64,000 nucleotides of DNA from Chelatococcus sp. HY11 (GTDB taxonomy: Bacteria > Pseudomonadota > Alphaproteobacteria > Rhizobiales > Beijerinckiaceae): NCBI RefSeq assembly GCF_018398335.1, contig NZ_JAHBRX010000001.1, forward strand, positions 3,650,001 to 3,714,000, in the 5' to 3' direction. The translations under genes and the position numbers were made by a program. Below are positions 9,773 to 24,065 of this stretch, piece after piece (within the stretch, counting starts at the first letter, position 1; each line of letters starts with the position of its first letter). The notes under the pieces are model-generated. The model did not search any database and was not told the origin of the DNA. It saw only the letters and a list, made by a program, of their open reading frames with translations.

Positions 9773-11854
9773 ATGTCCCAACATAGTTACCGGATAGGCG
9801 TCGACATCGGCGGAACATTCACCGATGTGGTTGTTGCGCGCAACGATGGCCTTGTTGAAACGCGCAAGGTGCCCTCGACACCTGACGACTACAGCCGCGG
9901 CATCGCCATGGCGATCAAGGCGCTGGTCGAGGAGTTTCAGACCACGCCCGATCGCATTACCGGCATCGTCCACGCGACGACGGTCGCGACCAATGCGATC
10001 CTGGAATACAAGGGCGCCTGCACGGGCCTGTTGACGACGGCCGGCTTCCGCGACGTGCTGGAGATGCGCCGGCTGCGCATCCCCGTGCTCTATGACCTTC
10101 AGTATGACAAGCCGAAACCGCTCGTGGCGCGGCGGCTCAGGCTTGAGGTGCGCGAGCGGCTGAGCGCCGACGGCGGCGTCAGGCTGCCGTTGTCGGAGGA
10201 CGATGTCGTTGCCGCCGCGCGACACTTCCGCGAAGCCGACGCGGAGGCCGTCGCCATCAGCTTCCTGCATGCCTATGCGAATCCGGCCCATGAAATCGCG
10301 GCGGAGGCCATCCTGCGGCGCGAGCTGGGCTCGCATGTCTATATCTGCCGGGGCTCCGAGATCCTTCCCGAGATCCGCGAATACGAGCGCACCAGCACGG
10401 TGGTCGTGAATGCTTATATCGGTCCGGTGGTGCGCAACTACGCCAGCGCCCTGACCGCGCGGCTTGCCTCGATCGGCGTGACCTGCGCGGTGGACATGAT
10501 GCATTCCGGCGGCGGCATCATGCGGCTGGAATCGGCGGTGCGCCGCGCCGCGTCCCTCGTGGAGTCGGGGCCGGCCGCTGGCGTGATTGCCTGCGCGCGG
10601 CTGTTCCCAGGGCACGCCGAACCCAGCATCATCAGTTTCGACATGGGAGGCACCACGGCGAAGGCTGCTTTGGTGGAGGACGGCGAGCCCGCGCGGACCA
10701 CGGAATATGAGGTGGGCGCCGGCATCAATCTGTCGAGCAAGCTGGTCAAGGGGGGCGGCTATCCCATCAAGATGCCGTTCATCGATGTCTCCGAGATCGG
10801 TGCCGGCGGGGGCAGCATCATCGCCATCGATCGCATGAACCAGGTCTCCGTCGGTCCGCAGAGCGCCGGCGCCTATCCCGGTCCCGTCTGCTACGGTTTG
10901 GGCGGCACGCAGGCCACGCTGACCGATGCCTTTCTCACGCTCGGCTACATCAACAATGAGGCGCTTGCCGGCGGCACGTTTCCGCTGCAGGCGGAGGCTG
11001 GGCGCGCGGCGCTGAACGATCAGGTGGCGCGGCCGCTCGGGCTTGAACTGTCGCGCACGGCGCGCGGCGTGCTGACCCTTGCGGTCACCACCATGACGCG
11101 GGCCGTCAAGGCTGTGTCCACCTACCGTGGCCGGGATCCGCGTCAGTCGACCCTCGTCGCGTTCGGAGGCAACGGGCCGGTTGTGGCGGCGGAGGTGGCC
11201 ATGGCGCTCGGTATCCGGCGTGTCATCATTCCGCGCGCGGCAGGCGTTTTCAGCGCGCTCGGGCTGCTGCGCTCCGATGTGGAGCAGGAATTCGTGCGGC
11301 CATCGCGGCATCGGCCGGGGGAGCTGGACGATGGCGGGCTCGCCGGCCTGTTCGACGAACTCGCGGCCGATGCCCGCCGCATCATGACGCTGGAGGGTTA
11401 TGACCAGTCAGCCGCTACGTTCCATCGCGCGGCGGACCTACGCTATGTCGGGCAGGCCTATGAGCTCACGGTGCCGGCTGAACGGCTCTCACTGGATGAG
11501 CTGACGGAGCTGTTCCATCGCGAGCATGAGCGCACCTATGGGCATCGCTCCGCAGGTGACGCGGTGCATCTCGTCAATGCGCGCCTCACCGTGCGTTTGC
11601 CGCTCGTCGCGCCGCCCCCGCATTTCCATCCGGACAAGCCGCTGCGGCGCGCCGACCGAAGCGTCATTTTCGCCGCTGATCGTGAGCCGGCTACCGTCGC
11701 GGTCATCGGCCGGGGCGAGCTGGACGCCACGCCACGGCGCGGGCCCTTCGTGATCGAGGACTATGACAGCACCTGTATCATCGGGCCTGGGCAGGCCGCG
11801 AGCCTCGATGAGGCCGGCAACATAGCCATCATGCTCAGTGGAGAAGCGTCATGA
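9773..11854 (+). CDS. Hydantoinase/oxoprolinase subunit A (HyuA type)
   Basis: A 693-residue protein of the N-methylhydantoinase A/acetone carboxylase beta/5-oxoprolinase family. The N-terminal actin-like ATPase fold begins GVDIGGTFTDVV (about residue 9), and the central ASKHA domain has ISFDMGGTTAKAALVEDG (about residue 286). In known members subunit A activates a cyclic amide with ATP and works with subunit B in ring opening of hydantoins, N-methylhydantoin or 5-oxoproline. It overlaps hyuB by four bases. Exact substrate cannot be assigned; linkage to a dipeptide-type importer and a PLP enzyme for D-hydroxy-amino acids suggests an amino-acid-derived ring. Confidence 0.92.
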   Translation: MSQHSYRIGVDIGGTFTDVVVARNDGLVETRKVPSTPDDYSRGIAMAIKALVEEFQTTPDRITGIVHATTVATNAILEYKGACTGLLTTAGFRDVLEMRRLRIPVLYDLQYDKPKPLVARRLRLEVRERLSADGGVRLPLSEDDVVAAARHFREADAEAVAISFLHAYANPAHEIAAEAILRRELGSHVYICRGSEILPEIREYERTSTVVVNAYIGPVVRNYASALTARLASIGVTCAVDMMHSGGGIMRLESAVRRAASLVESGPAAGVIACARLFPGHAEPSIISFDMGGTTAKAALVEDGEPARTTEYEVGAGINLSSKLVKGGGYPIKMPFIDVSEIGAGGGSIIAIDRMNQVSVGPQSAGAYPGPVCYGLGGTQATLTDAFLTLGYINNEALAGGTFPLQAEAGRAALNDQVARPLGLELSRTARGVLTLAVTTMTRAVKAVSTYRGRDPRQSTLVAFGGNGPVVAAEVAMALGIRRVIIPRAAGVFSALGLLRSDVEQEFVRPSRHRPGELDDGGLAGLFDELAADARRIMTLEGYDQSAATFHRAADLRYVGQAYELTVPAERLSLDELTELFHREHERTYGHRSAGDAVHLVNARLTVRLPLVAPPPHFHPDKPLRRADRSVIFAADREPATVAVIGRGELDATPRRGPFVIEDYDSTCIIGPGQAASLDEAGNIAIMLSGEAS

Positions 11855-13626
11855 GCCAGACTGACATGAGCGTCTCCGGGGAGGGCGTCGCCCCGGCGAT
11901 CGACCCCATAACCCTAGAGGTCATCCGCAACGCACTTGCTTCCACCGCCGACGAGATGGCGCTGATCATCATGCGCAGCGCCTATTCGCCGGTCGTGCGC
12001 GACATCATGGATTATTCGACCGGCCTCTGCGACGCGAAAGGCCGGGTCATCGCGCAGGGCCTGACGCTGCCGATCCAGCTCTGTTCCTTCCCGCGCATCA
12101 TGCAGTTCGTGCGGGAGCGCTTCGGCGCCTCGCTCAGCGAAGGCGATATCCTCATCGCCAACGACCCCTACGGGTCGGGCGGGCAACATCTCCCGGACGT
12201 CTATATTCTCAAGCCGATCTTCGCCGACGGCGTGCTGGCCGGCTTCGCGGCGACCGTCGCCCACCACACCGATCTTGGCGGCATCGCACCCGGGAGTGTC
12301 GCCATCTACGCGACCGAGATTCAGCAGGAAGGGTTGAGGCTGCCCCTGCTCAAGCTTTATGAAGCCGGCAAACCAAATGAGGCCGTCTTCGGCATTCTAG
12401 AGGCGAACACGCGCTCGCCGGTCGAGGTGCTGGGCGATATCCGCGCGCAGATCGCGGCCTGCAATGTGGCCGAGGAGGGGCTGAAGGCGCTTGTTGCCCG
12501 CTACGGGCAGGCCTGCCTCGACAGCTATATCGGGGCCCTGCATGACCACGCCGAGGCGATGATGCGCGAGACGATCCGCGACCTGCCGAACGGCGTCTAC
12601 CGCGCCACGGACTATATCGACGGCGTGGGCGAGAACCCGGCACCCCTTGCCATCGTGGCGACCGTCACCGTCAACGACGACACCATCGACATCGACTTCG
12701 CCGGCACGGCCGGCCAGGTGGCGGCGAGCATCAACTGCCCGATCTCGCTGCCGGAATCGGCCGCCTTCAGCGCCATCCGCTGCCTGTCGCAGCGGGATAT
12801 CCCCAATTGCGAGGGCTACCTCAGGCCCATCACGGTTCGCGCGCCGGAGGGCTGCCTGGTCAATCCGCGTTACCCCGCCGCCTGCGGGGCTCGCGGCGTC
12901 GTCGGCTACCGCGTCTTCGACGCGATCATGCAGGCGCTGGCGCAGGTGGTGCCGGAGCGCGCCATCGGCGGCTCCGAAGGCGGACCCTATCTCCTGGCAT
13001 CGGGCGGCATGCATCAGGGGCGGCCCTTCGTGCTCAACGAGATGGTCGTCGGCACCTGGGGGGCGCGCGCCACGAAGGACGGCATCGAAGGTATTTCGAA
13101 CCCGGCCGCCAACCTGTCCAACCAGCCGATCGAAATGATCGAGACGGATATGCCCATCGAGGTGCTTGATTACGGCCTGGTGCCGGATTCCGGTGGGCCG
13201 GGGGAGTTCCGGGGCGGCCTCGCCTTCGTGCGCAGCTTCAGATTTCTCACCGATGCCCGCTTCACCTTGCGCGGGGACCGGCGCGCTCACCCGCCCTATG
13301 GCGTCGAGGGCGGCGGCGCGGGTTCCTCGTCCGAGCATCTCCTGATCCGGCTGGATGGTGGCGCACATGTTCTGCCGACCATGCCGATGGAGAGCTTCAC
13401 GGCTAGGGCGGGCGATGTCTTCCGCCTTACCGGCGCTGGCGGTGGCGGCTACGGCAATCCGCTCCTGCGAGAGACCTCGCGGGTTCTGGATGATATCCGC
13501 GAAGGCAAGGTGACACGCGAGGGGGCATTGCGCGACTATGGCGTCGTCGTGGACGATGATCTGAGTGTGGACCCGGCTGCAACACTGCGTCTGCGCCGGG
13601 AGCGTGGACTGGAGCGACAATCGTGA
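11851..13626 (+). CDS. Hydantoinase/oxoprolinase subunit B (HyuB type)
   Basis: A 591-residue hydantoinase B/oxoprolinase protein of normal length for the family. Characteristic stretches include the N-terminal DPITLEVIRNALASTADEMA, the NDPYGSGGQHLPD segment, and the C-terminal glycine-rich region GDVFRLTGAGGGGYGNP. It pairs with HyuA (overlap ATGA) to form the ATP-dependent ring-opening enzyme. Its stop overlaps the next start (TGATG), so all three enzyme genes are coupled. Confidence 0.92.
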   Translation: MSQTDMSVSGEGVAPAIDPITLEVIRNALASTADEMALIIMRSAYSPVVRDIMDYSTGLCDAKGRVIAQGLTLPIQLCSFPRIMQFVRERFGASLSEGDILIANDPYGSGGQHLPDVYILKPIFADGVLAGFAATVAHHTDLGGIAPGSVAIYATEIQQEGLRLPLLKLYEAGKPNEAVFGILEANTRSPVEVLGDIRAQIAACNVAEEGLKALVARYGQACLDSYIGALHDHAEAMMRETIRDLPNGVYRATDYIDGVGENPAPLAIVATVTVNDDTIDIDFAGTAGQVAASINCPISLPESAAFSAIRCLSQRDIPNCEGYLRPITVRAPEGCLVNPRYPAACGARGVVGYRVFDAIMQALAQVVPERAIGGSEGGPYLLASGGMHQGRPFVLNEMVVGTWGARATKDGIEGISNPAANLSNQPIEMIETDMPIEVLDYGLVPDSGGPGEFRGGLAFVRSFRFLTDARFTLRGDRRAHPPYGVEGGGAGSSSEHLLIRLDGGAHVLPTMPMESFTARAGDVFRLTGAGGGGYGNPLLRETSRVLDDIREGKVTREGALRDYGVVVDDDLSVDPAATLRLRRERGLERQS

Positions 13627-14789
13627 TGAACACTGTCGGTGCCGCGGCGCTGAACGCGCCGAAGATCGGGATTGTGGCTGGCCGCGCACATCTTGAGACC
13701 CCGGCGGCCGTGCTCGACCTGCCGATCTTTGAGCGCAACCTTGCCACCCTGGCGGAGACATGCCGGCGGGCGGGTGTCGGCATGCGGCCCCATGCAAAGT
13801 CGCACAAGTCAGCGGAGATCGCGCGGCGGCAGCTCGCGGCAGGCGCGCTCGGCATCTGCTGCGCCAAGCCGGGAGAGCTCCTGGCCTTGTTCGAGGCGGG
13901 CATCACGGATCTGATGCTGACGGCGCCCGTTGCGAGCGCCGCCAAGATCGACGCGTTGGCGCGGGCGGCATCTGCGGGAGCGCGCCTGATGGTGGTGGCT
14001 GATCGGGTGGACCTTATCGCCGCCTATGGCGATGCAGCCCGGCGTCACGACACACGCATCGATCTCGTGGTCGATCTCGATGTCGGTCTTCTGCGCAGCG
14101 GCGTGACCGAGCCTGAGCAGGCCGTAGCCTTGGCGCGGGCCGCAGCCGACCATTCCTATCTGCGCTTTGCCGGTGTGCAGGCTTACCAGGGTCGTGTCCA
14201 ACATATCGATGATTTCGACCAGCGGCGCGCGGCCAATGATGAGGTCGCCCGACGTCTGGTGCCGATGCTCGACGCGCTTGCCGTTGCCTCGCTCGCGCCC
14301 GCCATCATCTCCGGCGGTGGCACAGGCAGCCACGTGCTGGATGCCGAGCGCCGCTTGTTCACCGAGGTTCAGCCCGGTTCCTATGTCTTCATGGATGAGG
14401 CCTACAACTCGGTCGATATCGCGGGAGGCGGCGAGCTCGTCTTCGGCCCAGCCCTGCGCATCGCGGTCACCGTCATCGGCCACTCCTCGGCCGGCTTCGC
14501 TATCACGGATGGCGGCAGCAAGAGCTTTGCGTGGGATGGGCCGGCGCCGCGCGTGCTGCTCCCCGGCCCGTCAGGCGACAGGCTGGTCGGCACGATCGAA
14601 TGGTGTGGCGATGAGTTCGGCCGCATTCTTCCGGCCGCCGGCTGTGCCACCCTGCCCATCGGTACGGTCGTTGAATGCACCGTTCCCCATTGCGACCCGA
14701 CCATCAACATGCACGACGTCCTGCATGTGATGTCCGGCGACCGGCTGGTGGCGCAATGGGCCGTGGAAGGGCGAGGCCGCGCGGATTGA
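13626..14789 (+). CDS. D-threonine aldolase/D-serine dehydratase-like PLP enzyme
   Basis: A 387-residue fold-type III PLP enzyme of the DSD1/D-threonine-aldolase group. The probable PLP lysine lies in RPHAKSHKS (about residue 58). The C-terminal PHCDPTIN motif (about residue 359) carries the His and Asp that bind a divalent metal in D-threonine aldolase, 3-hydroxy-D-aspartate aldolase and D-serine dehydratase. ATG 13626 overlaps the hyuB stop; a GTG at 13623 is an alternative. In this operon it would act on a D-hydroxy-amino acid released by the imported compound. Aldolase, dehydratase and racemase activity cannot be told apart here. Confidence 0.85.
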   Translation: MNTVGAAALNAPKIGIVAGRAHLETPAAVLDLPIFERNLATLAETCRRAGVGMRPHAKSHKSAEIARRQLAAGALGICCAKPGELLALFEAGITDLMLTAPVASAAKIDALARAASAGARLMVVADRVDLIAAYGDAARRHDTRIDLVVDLDVGLLRSGVTEPEQAVALARAAADHSYLRFAGVQAYQGRVQHIDDFDQRRAANDEVARRLVPMLDALAVASLAPAIISGGGTGSHVLDAERRLFTEVQPGSYVFMDEAYNSVDIAGGGELVFGPALRIAVTVIGHSSAGFAITDGGSKSFAWDGPAPRVLLPGPSGDRLVGTIEWCGDEFGRILPAAGCATLPIGTVVECTVPHCDPTINMHDVLHVMSGDRLVAQWAVEGRGRAD

Positions 14790-14813: not shown

Positions 14814-15665
<852 letters not shown>

Positions 15666-15971: not shown

Positions 15972-18548
15972 ATGGAACGCAATCCGATCCGATATGTCTG
16001 GGCTCGCAGCCGGGGCGTTCATTGTCTGGCCTTTCTCATCATCGCCGCGCTGTTGCCGGTGGTTTGGCTGCTGTTGCTGGTGCCACGCGAACTTGTCGAC
16101 ATGGTATTCCTCGGCGATGCGGGCGCTGATGGACAGGTCAACGCTTTCCTGCGGCTCGCCATACCCTTGTCCTGGCATTTCGGTGGCGAGCGGGTGCTTT
16201 TCTCCGGCTTTCCGTTGAGCCGGGACCAGGCGTTCACGGTGGGGCTGATGGTTGTTGCCCTCCTTGTCCTGCTGAGGGCCGTGCTCAGGGTGTCCATCCG
16301 GCTGATCAGCGCGCGCCTCGGGCCTAGTCTCGCCGATGATCTCAGGCTCCTTCTCTTCCGGCATCTGGTGGCGGAACGTACCACCAGCGACGCCGTGGAG
16401 AACGCGATCACCTCGCTCGGCCATCGGGTCGCGGCGGTTACGCCTTTCCTCGGCCGGGCCTTGGCGGCGCCTGCGCTGTTTCTCGCCGAGGGCGTCATCG
16501 TCGTCCTGTTCGTCTTCACGCTGAATCTGTGGCTTGGCCTTGCCTTGATGGTGGCGGCCATGCTCGACGCGATGCTTGTTCCGGCCCGCGAGGCGGAAAG
16601 GGACACGATGTTGAGGCGGACGACGGCGGGTGAAACCGAGGCGATCCAGATGGGGCGCCATGCGGTTGAGCGCCTTCCGGCCATCCGGGTGCATGGCACG
16701 GCCGACGGCGAGGCCAGCCATTTCGCCGAGCGCCTGGCCAATGTCGCTAACAAGAACCGCCCGCCGCTCGGCCAGCTCACCGTGCTCGGCATCGCCCTGC
16801 GCATGGTGCGCGACGGCATGCCGGTGCTGATGCTTATCGTCGGCGGTTGGCTGATGATGCAGGGCAAGCTGACGCCGGGCGGCCTGCTGGCCGCCGTGAG
16901 CGCGGCTTTCCTGCTCATCCGCCCCGTCGAGGCCATGGCGCTCTGGACGCGCGAGCGGCATGCGGCGACGCAGCTCTTCGACGAGATCGCGCGTTCGATC
17001 GGCGATCTCAAGGCCCGCGCCCGGCGTTTCTCCGACACGGATCTGCCGGAACACTGGAGCCAGCTCCGTATTGAGCGGGCATCGATCTTCGATCCGGTGA
17101 CCAGCCATCGGCTCTCTGCGGTCGACATCGACATTCCCCTGCCGACGCGCACGGCGCTGGTGACCGATGACGAGGGCGGCGGACATATCATCGCGGCGGC
17201 GCTCGGTGGCGCGCTCGAGCCGTCCTCGGGCGAGATCAAGCTGGACGGCATCAATCTTCTGAATGTGCCGGCGGCTCGCCGCGCCCGGCGCGTCGCGCTG
17301 GCAGGCCATACGCCCATCATTCTCGACGGCACCTTGCGCCAGAATATTCTCTATGGAGCCTCCGATCCTGCCGGAGGGGACATCGACGCGGTCCTCTGCG
17401 ATGTCATGCGCACGGCCGGCATCGATGACGAAGCCTATGCGCTCGGCCTCTCCACGAGCGTCAGCAGCCAGACGGCGCCCCGTCTGGCGGAACAGGTGGT
17501 GGATGTCCGCCGGGCCATTCGGGCGGAGCTCAGCGCCAACGGGCTCGGCGAGTTGGTCGATCCCTTCGAGCCCAATCGCTACAACCGCTACGGAACCGTT
17601 GCCGAGAACATTCTGAATGGCGTCCCTGTCGGGGATACGTTCCGGGAGGCGCATCTCGCCTCCAATCCCTTCCTGCGGGCCGTGTTCGAAGCCGAGGACC
17701 TGACGCGGCCGCTCGCGGAGATGGGGTTCGCCATTGCCTCCAGTCTCGTCGAGATCTTCGACGGCGTGCCGGATGGGCATCCACTTTTCCAGCGTTTCGC
17801 CTTCTTCAGCGCCGCCGAGCGTGGCCTCTGCGCAGACATGGTGGCGCGCCGGTCGGAGCGCCGGCGGTCCGCCGAGACCGGGCGCGACCGCGACCGACAG
17901 ATCGCGCTGGCGCTTCGCTATTGCGAGACGCGGCATCGTCTCGGCGTTCTCGATGAGGCGATGGAAAAACGCCTCGTTGCAGCACGCCATACATTTGCGC
18001 GGTTGCTCCCGCCGAGCCTGAGGCCAGCGATCTCCTTTTACGAAGCGGATGCCATCTGCGCCGCCGCCTCGCTCAGCGACAATCTGCTCTTCGGGCGTAT
18101 CGCCTATGACGTGGCCGGTGCCGAGGACAAGGTCCACGCGACCGCGCGGCGCGTTCTCAGCAATCTCGGCCTGGATGAGGATGTGCTGCGTCTCGGGCTT
18201 TCCGCGCATGTCAGCCACGGCGCCGAAAGGCTTCAGCACCTCAACATCGCGCTGATCGATCTGGCACGCTGTTTGGTGCGCCAGCCGGATCTTCTTGTTC
18301 TTGACCGGGTGTTCGATGGTCTCTCCATCGCCGAGATCTCCGCCTTGATGAAGCGATTGGACGTGTTCATGGCTGACGGCAGCCTTATCGCCGTCGTGCC
18401 TTCCACCTTCGATCTAGGCGCGTTCTCCCGGATCATCCGCTTCGAGGGCGACCATGTCCTGGTTACGCAGGCTGATACGGAGCCCGCCGCTACAACGGAG
18501 CCCGTTACCGTGGGCGGCGGCAATGCGGCGATTTCAGCGCAATCATGA
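15972..18548 (+). CDS. Degenerate ABC exporter-like membrane protein
   Basis: An 858-residue protein with an N-terminal exporter-type membrane domain (about six helices, residues 10-330) followed by a nucleotide-binding-like region that has lost its catalytic motifs. At the Walker A position (about 397-404) it reads TDDEGGGH, without GKS/T. The Q-loop position has AGHTPIILDGTLRQNILYG with no glutamine. The signature position is SHGAERLQHLNIALIDLAR, and Walker B is DLLVLDRVFDGLS, with Arg in place of the catalytic Glu. Three copies of an ENIL.G-type motif (about residues 459, 545, 703) suggest internal duplication of NBD pieces. ATG 15972 is a tentative start without a clear ribosome-binding site. 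ATP hydrolysis is unlikely; a scaffold or regulatory role is a guess. Confidence 0.75.
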   Translation: MERNPIRYVWARSRGVHCLAFLIIAALLPVVWLLLLVPRELVDMVFLGDAGADGQVNAFLRLAIPLSWHFGGERVLFSGFPLSRDQAFTVGLMVVALLVLLRAVLRVSIRLISARLGPSLADDLRLLLFRHLVAERTTSDAVENAITSLGHRVAAVTPFLGRALAAPALFLAEGVIVVLFVFTLNLWLGLALMVAAMLDAMLVPAREAERDTMLRRTTAGETEAIQMGRHAVERLPAIRVHGTADGEASHFAERLANVANKNRPPLGQLTVLGIALRMVRDGMPVLMLIVGGWLMMQGKLTPGGLLAAVSAAFLLIRPVEAMALWTRERHAATQLFDEIARSIGDLKARARRFSDTDLPEHWSQLRIERASIFDPVTSHRLSAVDIDIPLPTRTALVTDDEGGGHIIAAALGGALEPSSGEIKLDGINLLNVPAARRARRVALAGHTPIILDGTLRQNILYGASDPAGGDIDAVLCDVMRTAGIDDEAYALGLSTSVSSQTAPRLAEQVVDVRRAIRAELSANGLGELVDPFEPNRYNRYGTVAENILNGVPVGDTFREAHLASNPFLRAVFEAEDLTRPLAEMGFAIASSLVEIFDGVPDGHPLFQRFAFFSAAERGLCADMVARRSERRRSAETGRDRDRQIALALRYCETRHRLGVLDEAMEKRLVAARHTFARLLPPSLRPAISFYEADAICAAASLSDNLLFGRIAYDVAGAEDKVHATARRVLSNLGLDEDVLRLGLSAHVSHGAERLQHLNIALIDLARCLVRQPDLLVLDRVFDGLSIAEISALMKRLDVFMADGSLIAVVPSTFDLGAFSRIIRFEGDHVLVTQADTEPAATTEPVTVGGGNAAISAQS

Positions 18549-18846: not shown

Positions 18847-19716
18847 ATGTGCGCCTATCCTGCTCCAGCCGATGATGCGCTCCTGGTCAAGTTTTGGGGC
18901 GTTCGCGGTTCGATTCCGGTCTGCGGAACAGATCACGTCATTTTTGGCGGCCATACGCCTTGTGTCGAGATTCGATGCGGCGGCCAGCTTTTCATCATTG
19001 ATGCCGGTACGGGAATCACCAACCTCGGCCTGGCCATCAAGGAGACGGCGCCGGCGCAGATCGAGATTCTGCTGAGCCATCTTCATCTCGATCATGTGAT
19101 GGGCTTGCCCTTCTTCAAGCCCGCCCTTTATCCTGACAAGACGATCCGGTTGTCCTGCGGCAACCTCGATGGGCAAACGGCCGAAAAGCCTTTGGAGCGG
19201 TTGTTTGCGCCGCCGATTTTCCCGGTAACGCTCGCGCAGCTGCCCGCGAAATTCGTCTACAACGGTTTCAGGGCCGGTGAGACGCTGTCATTCGGCCCCC
19301 ATAGCGTGCGGACCTGTCCGTTGGACCATCCGTCCGGCGCGACCGCCTATCGTTTTGACTATGGTGGCCGCAGCGTGTGCTATGTCAGCGACGTCGAACA
19401 TGGCGAGAACTGGCCGCCCGAGAATCTCATCGAATTCGTCCTGGATGCGGACCTCGTCATCTATGACGCCATGTTCTGCGAAAACGAATACAGCCATTGC
19501 CGTGGGTGGGGGCATTCCACGATTAGCGCGGGGGTCGAGCTTTGCCGTCGCGGTCATGTAAAGCAGCTCGCTGCTTTCCATATGCACCCGATGCATAATG
19601 ATGCCTTCCTGCTCGACATGGAGGCCGACCTCGCCAAGGCTATGCCGGGATCATTCGTGGCCCGTCAGGGACAGTCTCTCGTCTTCGCCCCCGTGGCGAT
19701 GGAAGTCCCGGCCTGA
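18847..19716 (+). CDS. MBL-fold metallo-hydrolase, phosphodiesterase-like
   Basis: A 289-residue metallo-beta-lactamase-fold hydrolase. The N-terminal FWGVRGSIPVCG is the hallmark of the branch that includes phosphoribosyl cyclic phosphodiesterase-like and cyclic-nucleotide phosphodiesterase-like proteins. The metal-binding motif HLHLDH (about residue 80) is intact, and further ligands are present (DHPSGATAY, YVSDVEHG, FHMHPMHND). It follows the degenerate ABC-like gene after 298 bases on the same strand, so it probably has its own promoter or a long leader. The substrate is unknown; a cyclic phosphodiester is plausible. Confidence 0.85.
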   Translation: MCAYPAPADDALLVKFWGVRGSIPVCGTDHVIFGGHTPCVEIRCGGQLFIIDAGTGITNLGLAIKETAPAQIEILLSHLHLDHVMGLPFFKPALYPDKTIRLSCGNLDGQTAEKPLERLFAPPIFPVTLAQLPAKFVYNGFRAGETLSFGPHSVRTCPLDHPSGATAYRFDYGGRSVCYVSDVEHGENWPPENLIEFVLDADLVIYDAMFCENEYSHCRGWGHSTISAGVELCRRGHVKQLAAFHMHPMHNDAFLLDMEADLAKAMPGSFVARQGQSLVFAPVAMEVPA

Positions 19717-19866: not shown

Positions 19867-20901
19867 ATGACGGCATCTCTTCTGGCAGGCGTCGCCAGTG
19901 TCGGGCTCATCGCGGCGGGGCTTTCGGCCGCCCTTGTTCTTCTCCTCTTCCCGCTCATGCAGCGCTACGCGCTAGCCCGTCCGAACGCCCGTTCCAGCCA
20001 CCGCGTGCCGACGCCGCAAGGCGGCGGCATCGCGGTGTTGGCGGCCATGCTGGTGACTGCGTGCGCGGGCATTTCAGTTCTCGCGCCGGGCGCGATCTCC
20101 GCTTTCATCCCGGTCGCGATGGCCGCCGTCGTTCTGGCTGTCATTGGCGCCTTCGATGATATCCGGCCGTTGCCCGTGCTGCCGCGTCTCCTGTTCCAGT
20201 TCGGCGCGGTTGCCCTCGGCGTCGCGGCGGCGGGGGAGATCCGGCTCTTTCCTGCCCTTCTGCCGGCTCCTGTGGAATTCGCCCTCGTCGTTCTGGCAGG
20301 CGTCTGGTTCGTCAACCTCGTCAATTTCATGGACGGGCTGGACTGGATCACGGTGGCTGAAGTCGCGCCGGTCACGGCGGCGCTGGCGCTGTTCGCGCTG
20401 CTCGGCGCACTCCCCGGCGACGCGGGGCTCGTGGCGATAGGGCTCTGCGGGGCGATGCTTGGCTTCGCGCCCTTCAACAGGCCCGTGGCCCGGCTCTTCC
20501 TGGGTGATGTCGGCTCGCTCCCCATTGGCCTGATCCTGGGCTTCCTTCTCTATCGCCTCGCGGGGGAAGGGCATCTCACTGCGGCGCTCCTTCTGCCGCT
20601 CTACTATCTCGCGGACGCGACCTTGACGCTTCTGATGCGTCTGAGGCGCGGCGAGAAGGTCTGGCAGGCCCATCGCAGCCATTTCTACCAGCGTGCCACC
20701 GACAATGGCTTCACGGTGATGGAAGTCGTCGGAACGGTCTTCGCGCTCAATCTGGTGCTGGCCGGGCTTGCGACGTCGGCTGTGCTCGCAGAGGGAGTTC
20801 TCGTTCCCTGCGGGCTGCTGATGGCCGGCATCATCGCGGTTGCCATCGTGCTCGCACGTTTCGCCCGGCCGCGTCCGGCGGTCGCGGCGGGGAGAAGCTG
20901 A
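19867..20901 (+). CDS. Undecaprenyl-phosphate sugar-1-phosphate transferase, WecA/WbpL-like
   Basis: A 344-residue polytopic membrane enzyme of the MraY/WecA family (glycosyltransferase family 4). Key motifs are the early RSSHRVPTPQGGGIAVL, the catalytic cytoplasmic loop FDDIRPLP, NFMDGLDWI, and the late GDVGSLPIG; about ten transmembrane helices are visible. Such enzymes load the first sugar phosphate on undecaprenyl phosphate to begin O-antigen or capsule synthesis. Its stop overlaps the start of the epimerase gene by one base, and a FlaA1/CapD-type gene follows, so this is a polysaccharide module. Confidence 0.92.
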   Translation: MTASLLAGVASVGLIAAGLSAALVLLLFPLMQRYALARPNARSSHRVPTPQGGGIAVLAAMLVTACAGISVLAPGAISAFIPVAMAAVVLAVIGAFDDIRPLPVLPRLLFQFGAVALGVAAAGEIRLFPALLPAPVEFALVVLAGVWFVNLVNFMDGLDWITVAEVAPVTAALALFALLGALPGDAGLVAIGLCGAMLGFAPFNRPVARLFLGDVGSLPIGLILGFLLYRLAGEGHLTAALLLPLYYLADATLTLLMRLRRGEKVWQAHRSHFYQRATDNGFTVMEVVGTVFALNLVLAGLATSAVLAEGVLVPCGLLMAGIIAVAIVLARFARPRPAVAAGRS

Positions 20902-21833
20902 TGGCGCAGCGGGTTCTCCTGACCGGCGCGACGGGTTTCGTCGGCCGCCATCTCACCGCTGATCTGATGCGCGCCGGTATGATCGTGCGGGCGGCCACGC
21001 GCCAACAGAGCAGCCTGCCGGCAGGGGTCGAGCAGGTGGTCGTGGGCGATCTCGATGGTCCGGTTGACTGGAGCGAGGCGCTTGCTGGCGTGGACGCGGT
21101 TGTTCATGCCGCGGGCATCGCCCATGCCGGGCCGGGCATCGCCGAGGATCGCTATCATCGTGTGAATACGGCGGCGACGGTGGCGTTGGCGGAAGCGGCG
21201 GGGCCCCTGCGACGTTTCGTCTTCATCTCGTCCATCCGCGCCCAGAGCGGCCCGACGGCGGCGCGCATTCTGACGGAAGCTGACGCGCCTCGTCCCGAGG
21301 ACGCCTACGGCCGCTCAAAACTCGCCGCGGAGAAAGCGTTGGCCGATCTCAATGGGGACTGGGTCGCGCTCAGACCGGTGCTGGTCTATGGTCAAGGGGT
21401 GGGCGGGAATATGGGCGCCCTGCTGCGGCTGGCGCGCCTTCCCTTCCCCCTCCCGTTGAAAGGCCTCACGGGACGGCGGTCCCTTCTGGCGGTCGAGACG
21501 CTCGCGGGGGCTGTGCGCCACTGTCTCGCAATGGAGGAGGCGCCGAGGCGCGCCTTCATCGTCGCTGATCCGCAGCCGGTGACGGTGGGAGAGATCGTGG
21601 CAGCGCTCCGGGAAGGGATGGGCAGGCGACCGGGCCTTTTCACGGTGCCGGAGGGCGTTTTCCGGTCGCTCTGCGCGCTGTCTGGGCGCACCGCGGCCTG
21701 GGAACGCCTGGCGGGCTCGCTGGAAGTCGACGCGGCCGCGCTCAGGCGATCCGGCTTTGCGCCGGAACTGCAGACCCGACCACAGCTGCGTCTTTTATCG
21801 GCGGGGTCTTGCGCGCGGCGAACTCAGGGATAG
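20901..21833 (+). CDS. NAD-dependent epimerase/dehydratase (extended SDR)
   Basis: A 310-residue extended short-chain dehydrogenase/reductase. The Rossmann motif is LLTGATGFVGRHL at residues about 6-18, and the catalytic YGRSK lies near residue 135. This family includes UDP-GlcNAc/UDP-4-keto sugar epimerases and reductases; next to a WecA/WbpL-like transferase the natural partner activity is making the nucleotide sugar it uses, such as a 4-keto-reductase. A ribosome-binding sequence (GGGGAGAAG) precedes ATG 20901. Its last 92 bases overlap the convergent FlaA1/CapD-type gene. Confidence 0.9.
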   Translation: MAQRVLLTGATGFVGRHLTADLMRAGMIVRAATRQQSSLPAGVEQVVVGDLDGPVDWSEALAGVDAVVHAAGIAHAGPGIAEDRYHRVNTAATVALAEAAGPLRRFVFISSIRAQSGPTAARILTEADAPRPEDAYGRSKLAAEKALADLNGDWVALRPVLVYGQGVGGNMGALLRLARLPFPLPLKGLTGRRSLLAVETLAGAVRHCLAMEEAPRRAFIVADPQPVTVGEIVAALREGMGRRPGLFTVPEGVFRSLCALSGRTAAWERLAGSLEVDAAALRRSGFAPELQTRPQLRLLSAGSCARRTQG

Positions 21834-23787
21834 CATCCTCGAGGATGGCTTCCGCGGCCAGCCGGTCACCGCTGGTGATCGCCTCCGCGAGCGCGGCAAG
21901 GCGCGCGGCGAGATAACGCCGGTCAGCAAACAGCGGTTTGGCGGCCATGACGCCGTCTATGCCGGTTTCCGCCATGGGTTCCTGCTGGCTGAACAAAATC
22001 TCGTGCAGCCTTTCGCCCGGCCGGATCCCGGTCTCGACGATGTCGATATCCGCCCCCGGCTCGAAACCGGCCAGACGGATCATGCGTTCGGCGAGCGCGT
22101 AGATGCGAACGGGCTGGCCCATCTTCAGCACATAGACGGAGGCCTGCTCACGCGGCGCGGTGTTATCCGTGCTCGCATTGGCCACGACCTCGCCTGCCAC
22201 GCGCCCCTCGCCATCGGCGTGGGAGGCGGCCGTGATGACGAGGTCCACGGCCTCGCGCACGGTCATGAAGTAGCGCACCATGTCACGATGCGTGACCGTC
22301 ACCGGGCCACCGCGCGCGATCTGCGCCTTGAACTTCGGCACAACCGAGCCATTCGAGCCGAGCACATTGCCGAAGCGCACAGCGATGAGACGCGTCCCGC
22401 CGTCCTGATGGCCGCGTCCGCCATCGGCGCCTGCCATCTCCGCATCGAGGGCCTGGGCATACATCTCGGCGAAACGTTTGGTGGCGCCGAGCATCGACAC
22501 CGGCTCGATCGCCTTGTCGGTGGAGATCATCACCATGGCCTTGGCACCGGCGGCGACTGCGGCGTCAGCCACGTTGACGGAGCCGAAGACATTGGTGCGG
22601 ATACCCTCACCCCAGTCCTGCTCAAGATAGGGCACATGTTTCAAGGCGGCCGCATGGAAGACGATGTCCGGGTTGAACCGGGCGAAGAGCGTGTCCATGC
22701 GCATGCGGTCGCGCACGTCGGCGATCGCGCCTTCCACTTTCGTCTCGGTACCCAGATTGGCCAACGCTTCCGTGATCTGGTGGAGGGCGGGCTCGGAATT
22801 CTCGATGACGAGAATGTCAGACGCGCCAAAAGCGGCCGAACGCAGGCAAAGTTCGCTGCCGATGGAGCCGCCGCCGCCGGTGACGACGATACGCCGGCCG
22901 CGCACAAAGCGGGCGAGCCGGGCACGATCGATCTCGACCGTCGGTCGCAGCAGGAGATCCTCGATTTCCACGGGCTGGAGCGCCGCGGCGCTCATGCCCT
23001 CCTCGACATCCTGCATGCGTGACAGCGGCAGTCCGAGCCGCCGGGCGCGCAACAGAAGGTCACTGCCCTCGGTGTCGCTGCCATGCTCACCGGTGAGGGC
23101 ATTCTGTGTCAGGACGAGCCGGCGGATGGATACTCCGCGTTCCTGGGCCTCCGCGACCACCTGTTCGAGATCCGCGAAGCTGCCGAGCACGGGGACGCCG
23201 CGGATGGCCTGGCCGAGATCGCCCTGGCGGGGCGAGAGGATGCCCTCAGCGGAAATCTTACGGAAAGCCCCGGATTCGATGGCGCGAAGCAGTGCCTCGA
23301 TGTCCGTGCCGCGACCCAACAGAAGTGCGGGATGGGCGCCATCCTTCGCGTGGGTCTTGGCCTGTTCGTATTTTATATAACGATAGGCGAGGCGCGGGCC
23401 GCCCAGCAGCGCGACCTGCAGCAGCCAATAGAGCGCGATGGTGATCTTGCCGAAAAAGAAGAAGCCATAGAACGTCGACGAGGCCAGCACGTAGTCCACG
23501 ACCAGCAGGGTGAGCGCCAGAACCGTCGAGGCGCGAACGATGTTCGACAGGTCGGGTAACGACGCGAAGCGCCACTTCGATTTGTAGAGCGAGAACAGCC
23601 AGTAGATCGCGCCGGCGTAAATCAGGAAGACCGGCAGTATCGTCGGCAGCAGGTCGAGCCGCGTGGCAAGACGCCCCCCTTCGAAACGGATGATGAAGGC
23701 AAGGGTGACGGCGAGCGCCGTCGCGACGAGATCGTGGATCACGATCAACGTCTTCTTGAGGGAAGGGATGAGATCAAGCCGGGCCAT
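21742..23787 (-). CDS. Nucleoside-diphosphate-sugar dehydratase, FlaA1/CapD/WbpM type
   Basis: A 681-residue membrane-anchored polysaccharide enzyme. Four N-terminal transmembrane helices (residues about 10-120) and a CoA-binding-like domain precede a large SDR domain with the NAD motif VVTGGGGSIGSELC (about residue 300). The C-terminal half matches UDP-GlcNAc 4,6-dehydratases, which make the 4-keto precursor for QuiNAc, FucNAc or bacillosamine-type sugars. The start was set at ATG 23787 (MARLDLIPSLKK); a GTG at 23811 is possible. It converges with the epimerase gene and overlaps it by 92 bases. Together with the two preceding genes it forms an O-antigen or capsule sugar pathway. Confidence 0.93.
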   Translation of the reverse strand: MARLDLIPSLKKTLIVIHDLVATALAVTLAFIIRFEGGRLATRLDLLPTILPVFLIYAGAIYWLFSLYKSKWRFASLPDLSNIVRASTVLALTLLVVDYVLASSTFYGFFFFGKITIALYWLLQVALLGGPRLAYRYIKYEQAKTHAKDGAHPALLLGRGTDIEALLRAIESGAFRKISAEGILSPRQGDLGQAIRGVPVLGSFADLEQVVAEAQERGVSIRRLVLTQNALTGEHGSDTEGSDLLLRARRLGLPLSRMQDVEEGMSAAALQPVEIEDLLLRPTVEIDRARLARFVRGRRIVVTGGGGSIGSELCLRSAAFGASDILVIENSEPALHQITEALANLGTETKVEGAIADVRDRMRMDTLFARFNPDIVFHAAALKHVPYLEQDWGEGIRTNVFGSVNVADAAVAAGAKAMVMISTDKAIEPVSMLGATKRFAEMYAQALDAEMAGADGGRGHQDGGTRLIAVRFGNVLGSNGSVVPKFKAQIARGGPVTVTHRDMVRYFMTVREAVDLVITAASHADGEGRVAGEVVANASTDNTAPREQASVYVLKMGQPVRIYALAERMIRLAGFEPGADIDIVETGIRPGERLHEILFSQQEPMAETGIDGVMAAKPLFADRRYLAARLAALAEAITSGDRLAAEAILEDAIPEFAARKTPPIKDAAVVGSAVPAQSRIA

Positions 23788-24065
23788 GGGTCGTGCGGGA
23801 TATCCGCTCACATCACGCTTTTGTCAATGTTGGAAGCGCCGGGGACGGCGTTGTTGGCCAAGCATCGCGTGCAAGAACGACCTTATTGAGTCCATTCACT
23901 TTTTCTCGCCTTTCCATGGCCAGATTCTTGAGTCTAAAGGTCCAGCTGAAGCGCGCCGATCGATTCGACGGCGGGAACCAAACTGAACTGGAAATATTTC
24001 AATAGGTGATCTGCGTCCCGCGCCACATGACGCGCGTAACTTGCCAAGGCGAAGCTGGGCGTTCG

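Follow-up and report, generated by a model that had tools for sequence, protein, structure and literature searches.

ABC proteins, the ATP-binding cassette proteins, are defined by their use of ATP, and the locus described here raises the question of what an exporter of this kind might be kept for when its ATP sites have been dismantled. We analysed a stretch of 64,000 nucleotides from Chelatococcus sp. HY11 (NCBI RefSeq assembly GCF_018398335.1, contig NZ_JAHBRX010000001.1, positions 3,650,001 to 3,714,000 of the forward strand), referred to below as the window and used for all coordinates. At positions 15972-18548, a stop-free forward-strand frame encodes an ABC exporter-like protein of 858 aa, the window protein, which we assign to clade A of a larger family. 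A first-pass annotation, made from the sequence alone, had described an exporter fold that had lost every ATPase motif and duplicated pieces of its nucleotide-binding domain, and had proposed a non-transporting role such as a scaffold or sensor. We found that the protein has an exporter fold and is almost certainly an ATPase-dead fold under selection, and that the other clades of its family are encoded together with a cyclic nucleoside monophosphate (cNMP)-binding protein.

The exporter-type transmembrane domain comprises residues 1-348 (15972-17015, on the forward strand like every feature of this gene). Pfam ABC_membrane matched residues 87-319 with 29.5 bits against a cut-off of 28 (7.8e-7), and the helices of a structural model reach residue 348. 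This model, a check that the first-pass annotation had suggested, was obtained with AlphaFold2 from an input alignment of 41 rows and was ABC-exporter-like (mean predicted local distance difference test score, pLDDT, 84.6; predicted template modelling score, pTM, 0.75). Its top Foldseek matches were the ABC exporters MsbA, TmrAB and TM287/288, with E-values down to 5.1e-14, so that Pfam, AlphaFold2 and Foldseek agree on the exporter membrane domain claimed earlier. In the top four Foldseek matches about 860 columns were aligned with chains of about 575 residues, indicating that the window protein is about 280 residues longer than these exporters. Pfam ABC_tran remained below its cut-off (15.1 versus 25), being strongest over residues 704-778. 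The NCBIfam exporter equivalogs (CydC, MsbA and others) gave partial matches far under their curated cut-offs, the top one being CydC with 76 bits versus 329, and the Pfam scan of the protein detected neither a C39 peptidase domain nor a cNMP domain.

The catalytic motifs were read column by column in an alignment with members of the family in which canonical residues are still present, including those at loci L077 and L149. In the first part of the ABC domain (residues 360-500; 17049-17471), which holds the dead Walker A and the first copy of the Q-loop segment, the Walker A position (residues 398-405; 17163-17186) reads TDDEGGGH, with Gly in the Lys column and His in the Ser/Thr column. The Q-loop Gln column is likewise occupied by His. 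Residues 752-779 (18225-18308) extend, on the family alignment, from a degenerate signature, ERLQHLNIA, to the Walker B sequence LLVLDR, in which the Asp is retained and Arg stands in place of the Glu; the H-loop region reads VVPST. The combination expected of a type I exporter, namely Walker A Lys, Q-loop Gln, LSGGQ and Walker B Glu, is absent from the window protein, and all four of the losses reported earlier were confirmed. Since a Gly-rich remnant of the P-loop survives along with the Walker B Asp, the statement that every ATPase motif had been lost was slightly overstated, although the catalytic residues are indeed gone.

Internal duplication had been proposed from three ENIL-type motifs, namely QNILYG (residues 457-462; 17340-17357), ENILNG (residues 545-550; 17604-17621) and DNLLFG (residues 703-708; 18078-18095). 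We compared family segment profiles containing one such motif each, over residues 385-512 (S1), 500-640 (S2) and 640-818 (S3), and hhalign gave E-values of 9.8e-8 for S1/S2, 1.6e-17 for S2/S3 and 2.3e-8 for S1/S3. S1 and S2 overlap at residues 500-512, and S2 and S3 at residue 640; the aligned columns avoid the overlap or never pair a residue with itself. Nine controls with reversed or membrane-domain profiles gave E-values of 0.043 to 0.53. The motifs thus mark three homologous copies, and the Q-loop/helical segment is triplicated beyond chance. Copy 2 occupies residues 500-640 (17469-17891), as judged from its hhalign match to copy 3 and from profile A1, and residues 640-834 (17889-18473) hold copy 3 together with the C-terminal half of the ABC domain. 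In a plain profile search, the copy 2 profile detected copy 3 with E-values of 1.2e-7 to 7.7e-7 (10 rows), and a further search with this profile gave i-E-values for copy 3 from about 1e-9 to above 0.1 among the matches listed. Copy 1 was not significant by plain search with the copy 2 profile, its i-E-values being at least 0.23 among the matches listed.

Every copy in the model consists of a strand, the motif-bearing helix and two more helices, with an additional short strand after the motif in copies 2 and 3 but not in copy 1. The repeat profiles and the model show that the extra length consists mostly of repeats of the Q-loop-to-signature segment, found here where type I exporters have a single uninterrupted ABC domain. 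The duplicated ABC-side segment showed a mean column identity of 50%, as compared with 35% for the whole protein. Profile A1, of which the window gene is itself a row, matched this gene with an E-value of 2.6e-76; against the PDB sequences it gave four matches only, all of them dynein chains, with E-values of 0.93 or worse.

The intact frame had been taken as a sign of conservation rather than decay, and a selection test on orthologs had been suggested. Ratios of nonsynonymous to synonymous substitution rates (dN/dS) were calculated with a Nei-Gojobori script, in which some dS values exceeded 1. Among four congeners (six pairs), the whole-gene dN/dS was 0.084-0.113, indicating purifying selection, and the membrane domain gave 0.07-0.16. 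The dead Walker A stretch showed a dN of 0 in all six pairs, with a dS of 0.16-0.62. Only the tail after residue 825, that is, the last ~33 residues, was loose (0.30-0.88), and a paralogous clade of the same genus gave 0.045-0.072. Selection preserves the gene in its dead form. The reading that it is a pseudogene or a freshly inactivated exporter, which the lost catalytic motifs might otherwise favor, has next to no probability given the open frame of 858 codons, the whole-gene ratio, the invariance of the dead Walker A among the congeners and the lack of a Walker A Lys throughout the clade; the selection result refutes it, the short C-terminal tail excepted.

The loss of the ATP sites is not peculiar to the window gene. 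A match at E 1e-20 or better was found in 25 of 60 relatives, and profile A1 was matched in 25 of 299 genomes drawn from the phylum, every one of them in the same class. A profile scan of genome contigs, carried out with a 7-sequence subset, gave at least 555 confirmed loci, the best 80 of which were kept; the titles of these 80 that name a group are alphaproteobacterial, two naming Proteobacteria only. The window genome also carries a member of another clade, 27-35% identical and likewise dead, and 344 plasmid records, mainly of Rhizobium and Sinorhizobium, match this paralog. Among 86 non-redundant members, Walker A GK[ST] was retained in just three distant ones (L077, L138 and L149), one of which has a Walker B Asp-Glu. 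The Walker A Lys was retained in 22 members and was followed by Asp or Glu in 16; Walker B was Asn-Glu in 16 and Asp-Glu in two, and Lys-Asp/Glu was combined with Asn-Glu in ten. The Q-loop column held Gln in two members, with a Gln at most 2 residues away in five. At L166, L155, L082, L168 and others, the Walker A Ser/Thr is changed to Asp/Glu with the Lys kept, the Walker B Asp to Asn with the Glu kept, or both, so that the Mg-binding residues are altered and others retained.

On the trees, which were made with FastTree only, the 11 rows of the window clade grouped on a long stem with full local support. None of its 11 members, the window protein included, keeps the Walker A Lys, and canonical orthologues, which would have told against the first-pass annotation, were therefore not found in the protein's own clade. 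At least seven changes of the Walker A Lys and eight of the Walker B Glu are needed on the tree, indicating that the loss was not a single event. The member closest to an intact ATPase is that of L077 (Walker A GSSDSGKS, Walker B VVDE), which may resemble the ancestral state. This least degraded member (L077:4071-8252) has a fused cNMP domain, and an Apyc1-type hydrolase gene of the metallo-β-lactamase (MBL) fold ends about 90 bp before its start. Taken as a whole, the earlier interpretation stands for the exporter fold, the dead ABC domain, the three copies and the conservation, but the loss it attributed to one gene is family-wide, and it did not foresee the tie of the relatives to cyclic nucleotides and polysaccharide synthesis.

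This tie appeared in the gene neighborhoods, which were counted from stop-to-stop open frames in flanks of unequal length. The 117 loci included 97 non-fused loci outside clade A, reduced to 92 by dropping five recognised same-genome repeats, and 12 clade A loci, reduced to 11 by dropping one; the sample is non-random, biased to close relatives and rich in Microvirga, and further same-genome repeats may remain. Outside clade A, a gene for a cNMP-binding protein (PF00027, about 150 aa) lay on the same strand within 700 bp of the ABC-like gene in 87 of the 92 loci. A cNMP gene is present in the remaining five as well: at L122 it lies 3.9 kb away, and at the other four it exceeds the 700-bp limit while the open-frame extents overlap. 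A pattern common to the separate cNMP proteins, GE..IL.D.PR.AT, is presumably the phosphate-binding cassette. In eight of the 117 loci, and additionally in L023, the cNMP domain is fused at the C-terminus; the eight fusions were picked by eye and then confirmed by a profile from the separate cNMP genes, and Pfam detected a fused domain in 2 of the 29 members of alignment A2.

Of these 92 loci, 72 have both glycosyltransferase types, 17 have a same-strand class III cyclase and 10 have an MBL hydrolase. On a plasmid of Mesorhizobium sp. WSM1497, the RefSeq annotation places glycosyltransferases, the ABC gene, a cNMP-binding gene, an MBL gene and cyclases within one 26-kb stretch; a DUF3095 protein is encoded there between glycosyltransferase and nucleotide sugar dehydrogenase genes (L169:18028-19191). 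Rhizobium etli p42e and Sinorhizobium meliloti pSymB show a like arrangement without the MBL gene and with an importer-type ABC set nearby.

In the window, the gene is followed on the forward strand by an MBL-fold metallohydrolase (18847-19716; Pfam Lactamase_B_2, 7.8e-15), a Glycos_transf_4 (WecA/MraY-type) sugar-phosphate transferase (19867-20901; 7.1e-26) and an NAD-dependent epimerase (20901-21833; 3.5e-26), and then by a Polysacc_synt_2 (CapD-like) polysaccharide biosynthesis protein on the reverse strand (21742-23811; 3.4e-99). The window locus is not among the 11 clade A loci counted but shows the same arrangement: in 8 of the 11 an MBL gene lies at most 300 bp 3' of the clade A gene, and WecA- or CapD-type genes are near 8. 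No cNMP domain was detected by Pfam in the window protein or in the neighbor proteins scanned. The proposed role as a sensor is a better match for the cNMP-linked relatives than for the window protein, as no cNMP-binding gene is present at its locus.

The paralog was also considered as an obligatory partner of the window gene. Among nine genomes of one genus searched, four carry a clade A-type gene but no paralog (G011 was placed on the tree, and the other three were judged by match pattern), which rules out an obligatory partnership; another genome of that genus, G221, has both genes.

One possible explanation of these observations, which we prefer although we place it slightly below an even chance, is that the window protein is a ligand- or partner-controlled, non-hydrolysing type I ABC-exporter fold serving as a membrane component of a surface-polysaccharide system. 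The dead sites under selection, the better-conserved duplicated segment and the cNMP subunit of the relatives suggest that dimer movement is under the control of a ligand or partner, and the polysaccharide genes that surround both clades point to the process that is served. Judging from the gene neighborhood, it is rather likely that the protein forms part of an envelope-polysaccharide process, and it is probably homodimeric. In the other clades, the cNMP-binding subunit would dock onto the dead, enlarged ABC domain. In place of ATP, the ligand state of this subunit would then bring the two halves together and switch the membrane domain, and so regulate glycan assembly or passage; such cyclic-nucleotide control of the other clades could equally well prove right or wrong. 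The window protein itself comes from a derived clade of paralogs that lacks the cNMP gene, its switching input probably being another partner, and the adjacent MBL hydrolase perhaps acts with this input. Since no cNMP gene lies at the clade A loci and four of the nine genomes have a clade A-type gene but not the paralog, the window protein may act alone or with other partners. For this protein itself we regard the whole scheme as possible but doubtful. A broader scenario, in which Alphaproteobacteria dismantled the ATP sites, triplicated the segment as a docking platform and used a cNMP subunit to open and close the dimer and so switch a surface-polysaccharide machine, with the window clade swapping this subunit for another input, seems somewhat unlikely to hold in full.

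Several observations weigh against this proposal. A cNMP gene was found at 0 of the 11 clade A loci, so that the role of cNMP in the scheme is extrapolated from the paralogs, and 3 of the 11 have no MBL gene within 300 bp. The window MBL protein matched an NCBIfam cyclic-nucleotide phosphodiesterase model only weakly (48.6 bits versus a cut-off of 400), and Apyc1 was absent from its Pfam matches. Cyclases lie near a minority of members only, and the polysaccharide gene neighbors perhaps reflect co-location only. In addition, importer-type ABC genes occur near the rhizobial members, and an ORF with GxxxxGK[ST] and LSGG was found in the flanks of 39 of the 117 loci, 3 of the 12 clade A loci among them.

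These flanking ATPases, whose motifs are intact, would also suit a heterodimer in which the window protein is the dead half but transport continues, the ATPase activity coming from a canonical ABC exporter whose gene lies elsewhere. Heterodimeric exporters of which one site is degenerate are well documented (PMC7756269), and 47 of the 117 loci share an ABC ATPase cluster at a median distance of 5.5 kb. At least 150 ABC_tran matches were found in the genome, and an unlinked exporter partner may therefore exist. However, a second exporter-type ORF was found near only one of the 117 members (L072, not of clade A) and none at the clade A loci, indicating that a linked exporter partner is not a feature of the family; importer-type or unclassified ABC ATPases are commoner near members than an intact exporter partner. 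The nearest paralog is dead as well, and of the nine genomes searched four have a clade A-type gene and lack the paralog; moreover, Walker A, the Q-loop Gln, the signature and the Walker B Glu have all been lost together. We consider such a heterodimer improbable. An ATP-independent carrier, channel or flippase, passing a glycan or lipid down its gradient while the dead ABC domain merely holds the dimer, is also unlikely, but less so. It would accord with the purifying selection on the membrane domain and with a Rhodobacterales plasmid relative (L172) that consists of the membrane domain alone, whereas it leaves unexplained both the higher conservation of the segment and the cNMP-binding neighbor of the other clades. 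A non-transporting role, as proposed in the first-pass annotation, would be one possibility; the protein could still be an ATP-independent or partner-driven translocator.

The ABC domain might instead bind a nucleotide without hydrolysing it and report on the nucleotide pool. The members that keep the Walker A Lys, and those with Lys-Asp/Glu, Walker B Asn-Glu or both, in which the Mg site is changed while the phosphate-binding Lys remains, would fit such a function; in clade A, the window protein included, this Lys is gone from every member, and for the window protein we hold it to be distinctly improbable. Finally, the proteins could form an anti-phage system resembling Pycsar, in which a cyclase signal acts on a membrane effector with a cNMP domain. 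The cyclase of L089 and the cNMP protein of L031 matched PADLOC Pycsar models over shared domains (E 2.7e-20 and 4.4e-17), and the Apyc1-type MBL gene upstream of L077 points in the same direction. This is very improbable, as neither the window protein nor its MBL neighbor had a PADLOC match at E 0.01, a same-strand cyclase is near only 17 of 92 members, the glycosyltransferase neighbors stay the same in many genera, and neither cNMP nor cyclase domains are rare.

Compared with known systems, the dead-ABC family, with its triplicated segment and cyclic-nucleotide connection, is a variant of the known ABC exporters. The window protein has the same membrane-domain fold as the type I exporters MsbA, TmrAB, TM287/288 and Sav1866, and the parts of its ABC domain follow in the same order, but it differs from them in the four missing catalytic elements, the threefold segment and the additional ~280 residues. 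The degenerate-site exporters TAP, TM287/288, TmrAB and CFTR likewise show a selected loss of catalytic residues but keep one canonical site (PMC7756269). The window protein, in contrast, is wholly dead, as is its nearest paralog, and a second exporter ORF lies near 1 of 117 members. HetC of Nostoc is, according to PMC10986499, an exporter of the peptidase type whose N-terminal cNMP domain binds guanosine tetraphosphate (ppGpp) and whose ATPase is needed. The relatives of the window protein resemble it in linking an exporter fold to a cNMP-type domain; unlike HetC, with its C39 peptidase domain and needed ATPase, the window protein has a dead ABC domain and no peptidase domain found by Pfam; its relatives carry the cNMP domain at the C-terminus or on a protein of its own, and the window locus lacks it. 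As in Pycsar and Apyc1 (PMC9117128), a cyclase, a cNMP-domain protein and an MBL-type hydrolase recur, but the membrane protein of the family is an ABC-exporter fold beside glycosyltransferases and has no PADLOC match.

In the titles and abstract beginnings of the open-licence literature, we found no description of this dead-ABC family. A widespread, conserved family with exporter architecture and dismantled ATP sites would show other uses of this fold and would suggest a route from engine to switch. Its members in Rhizobium etli and Sinorhizobium meliloti lie in genetically tractable rhizobia, in which the annotation "ABC transporter ATP-binding protein" is probably misleading.

Upstream of the window gene and in line with it, at 9773-14789 and 14814-15665, are two genes resembling hydantoinase subunits by eye and an alanine-racemase-fold/D-serine dehydratase-like gene (Pfam); a DapD-type gene (Pfam) adjoins the ABC gene on the opposite strand. 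The relative of L172 (L172:7773-9077), on plasmid pP83_b of Phaeobacter inhibens, has 434 aa, comprises the membrane domain only and lies in a copper-handling gene cluster. Of 60 listed plasmid matches, 13 cover just 37-41% of the query (Sulfitobacter, Phaeobacter, Roseovarius, Pseudosulfitobacter and Leisingera), which suggests further membrane-domain-only forms among them, L172 alone having been translated. At L047, L050 and L143, the open frames continue for several hundred residues on the N-terminal side of the membrane domain, as a fusion or a GC-rich run-on.

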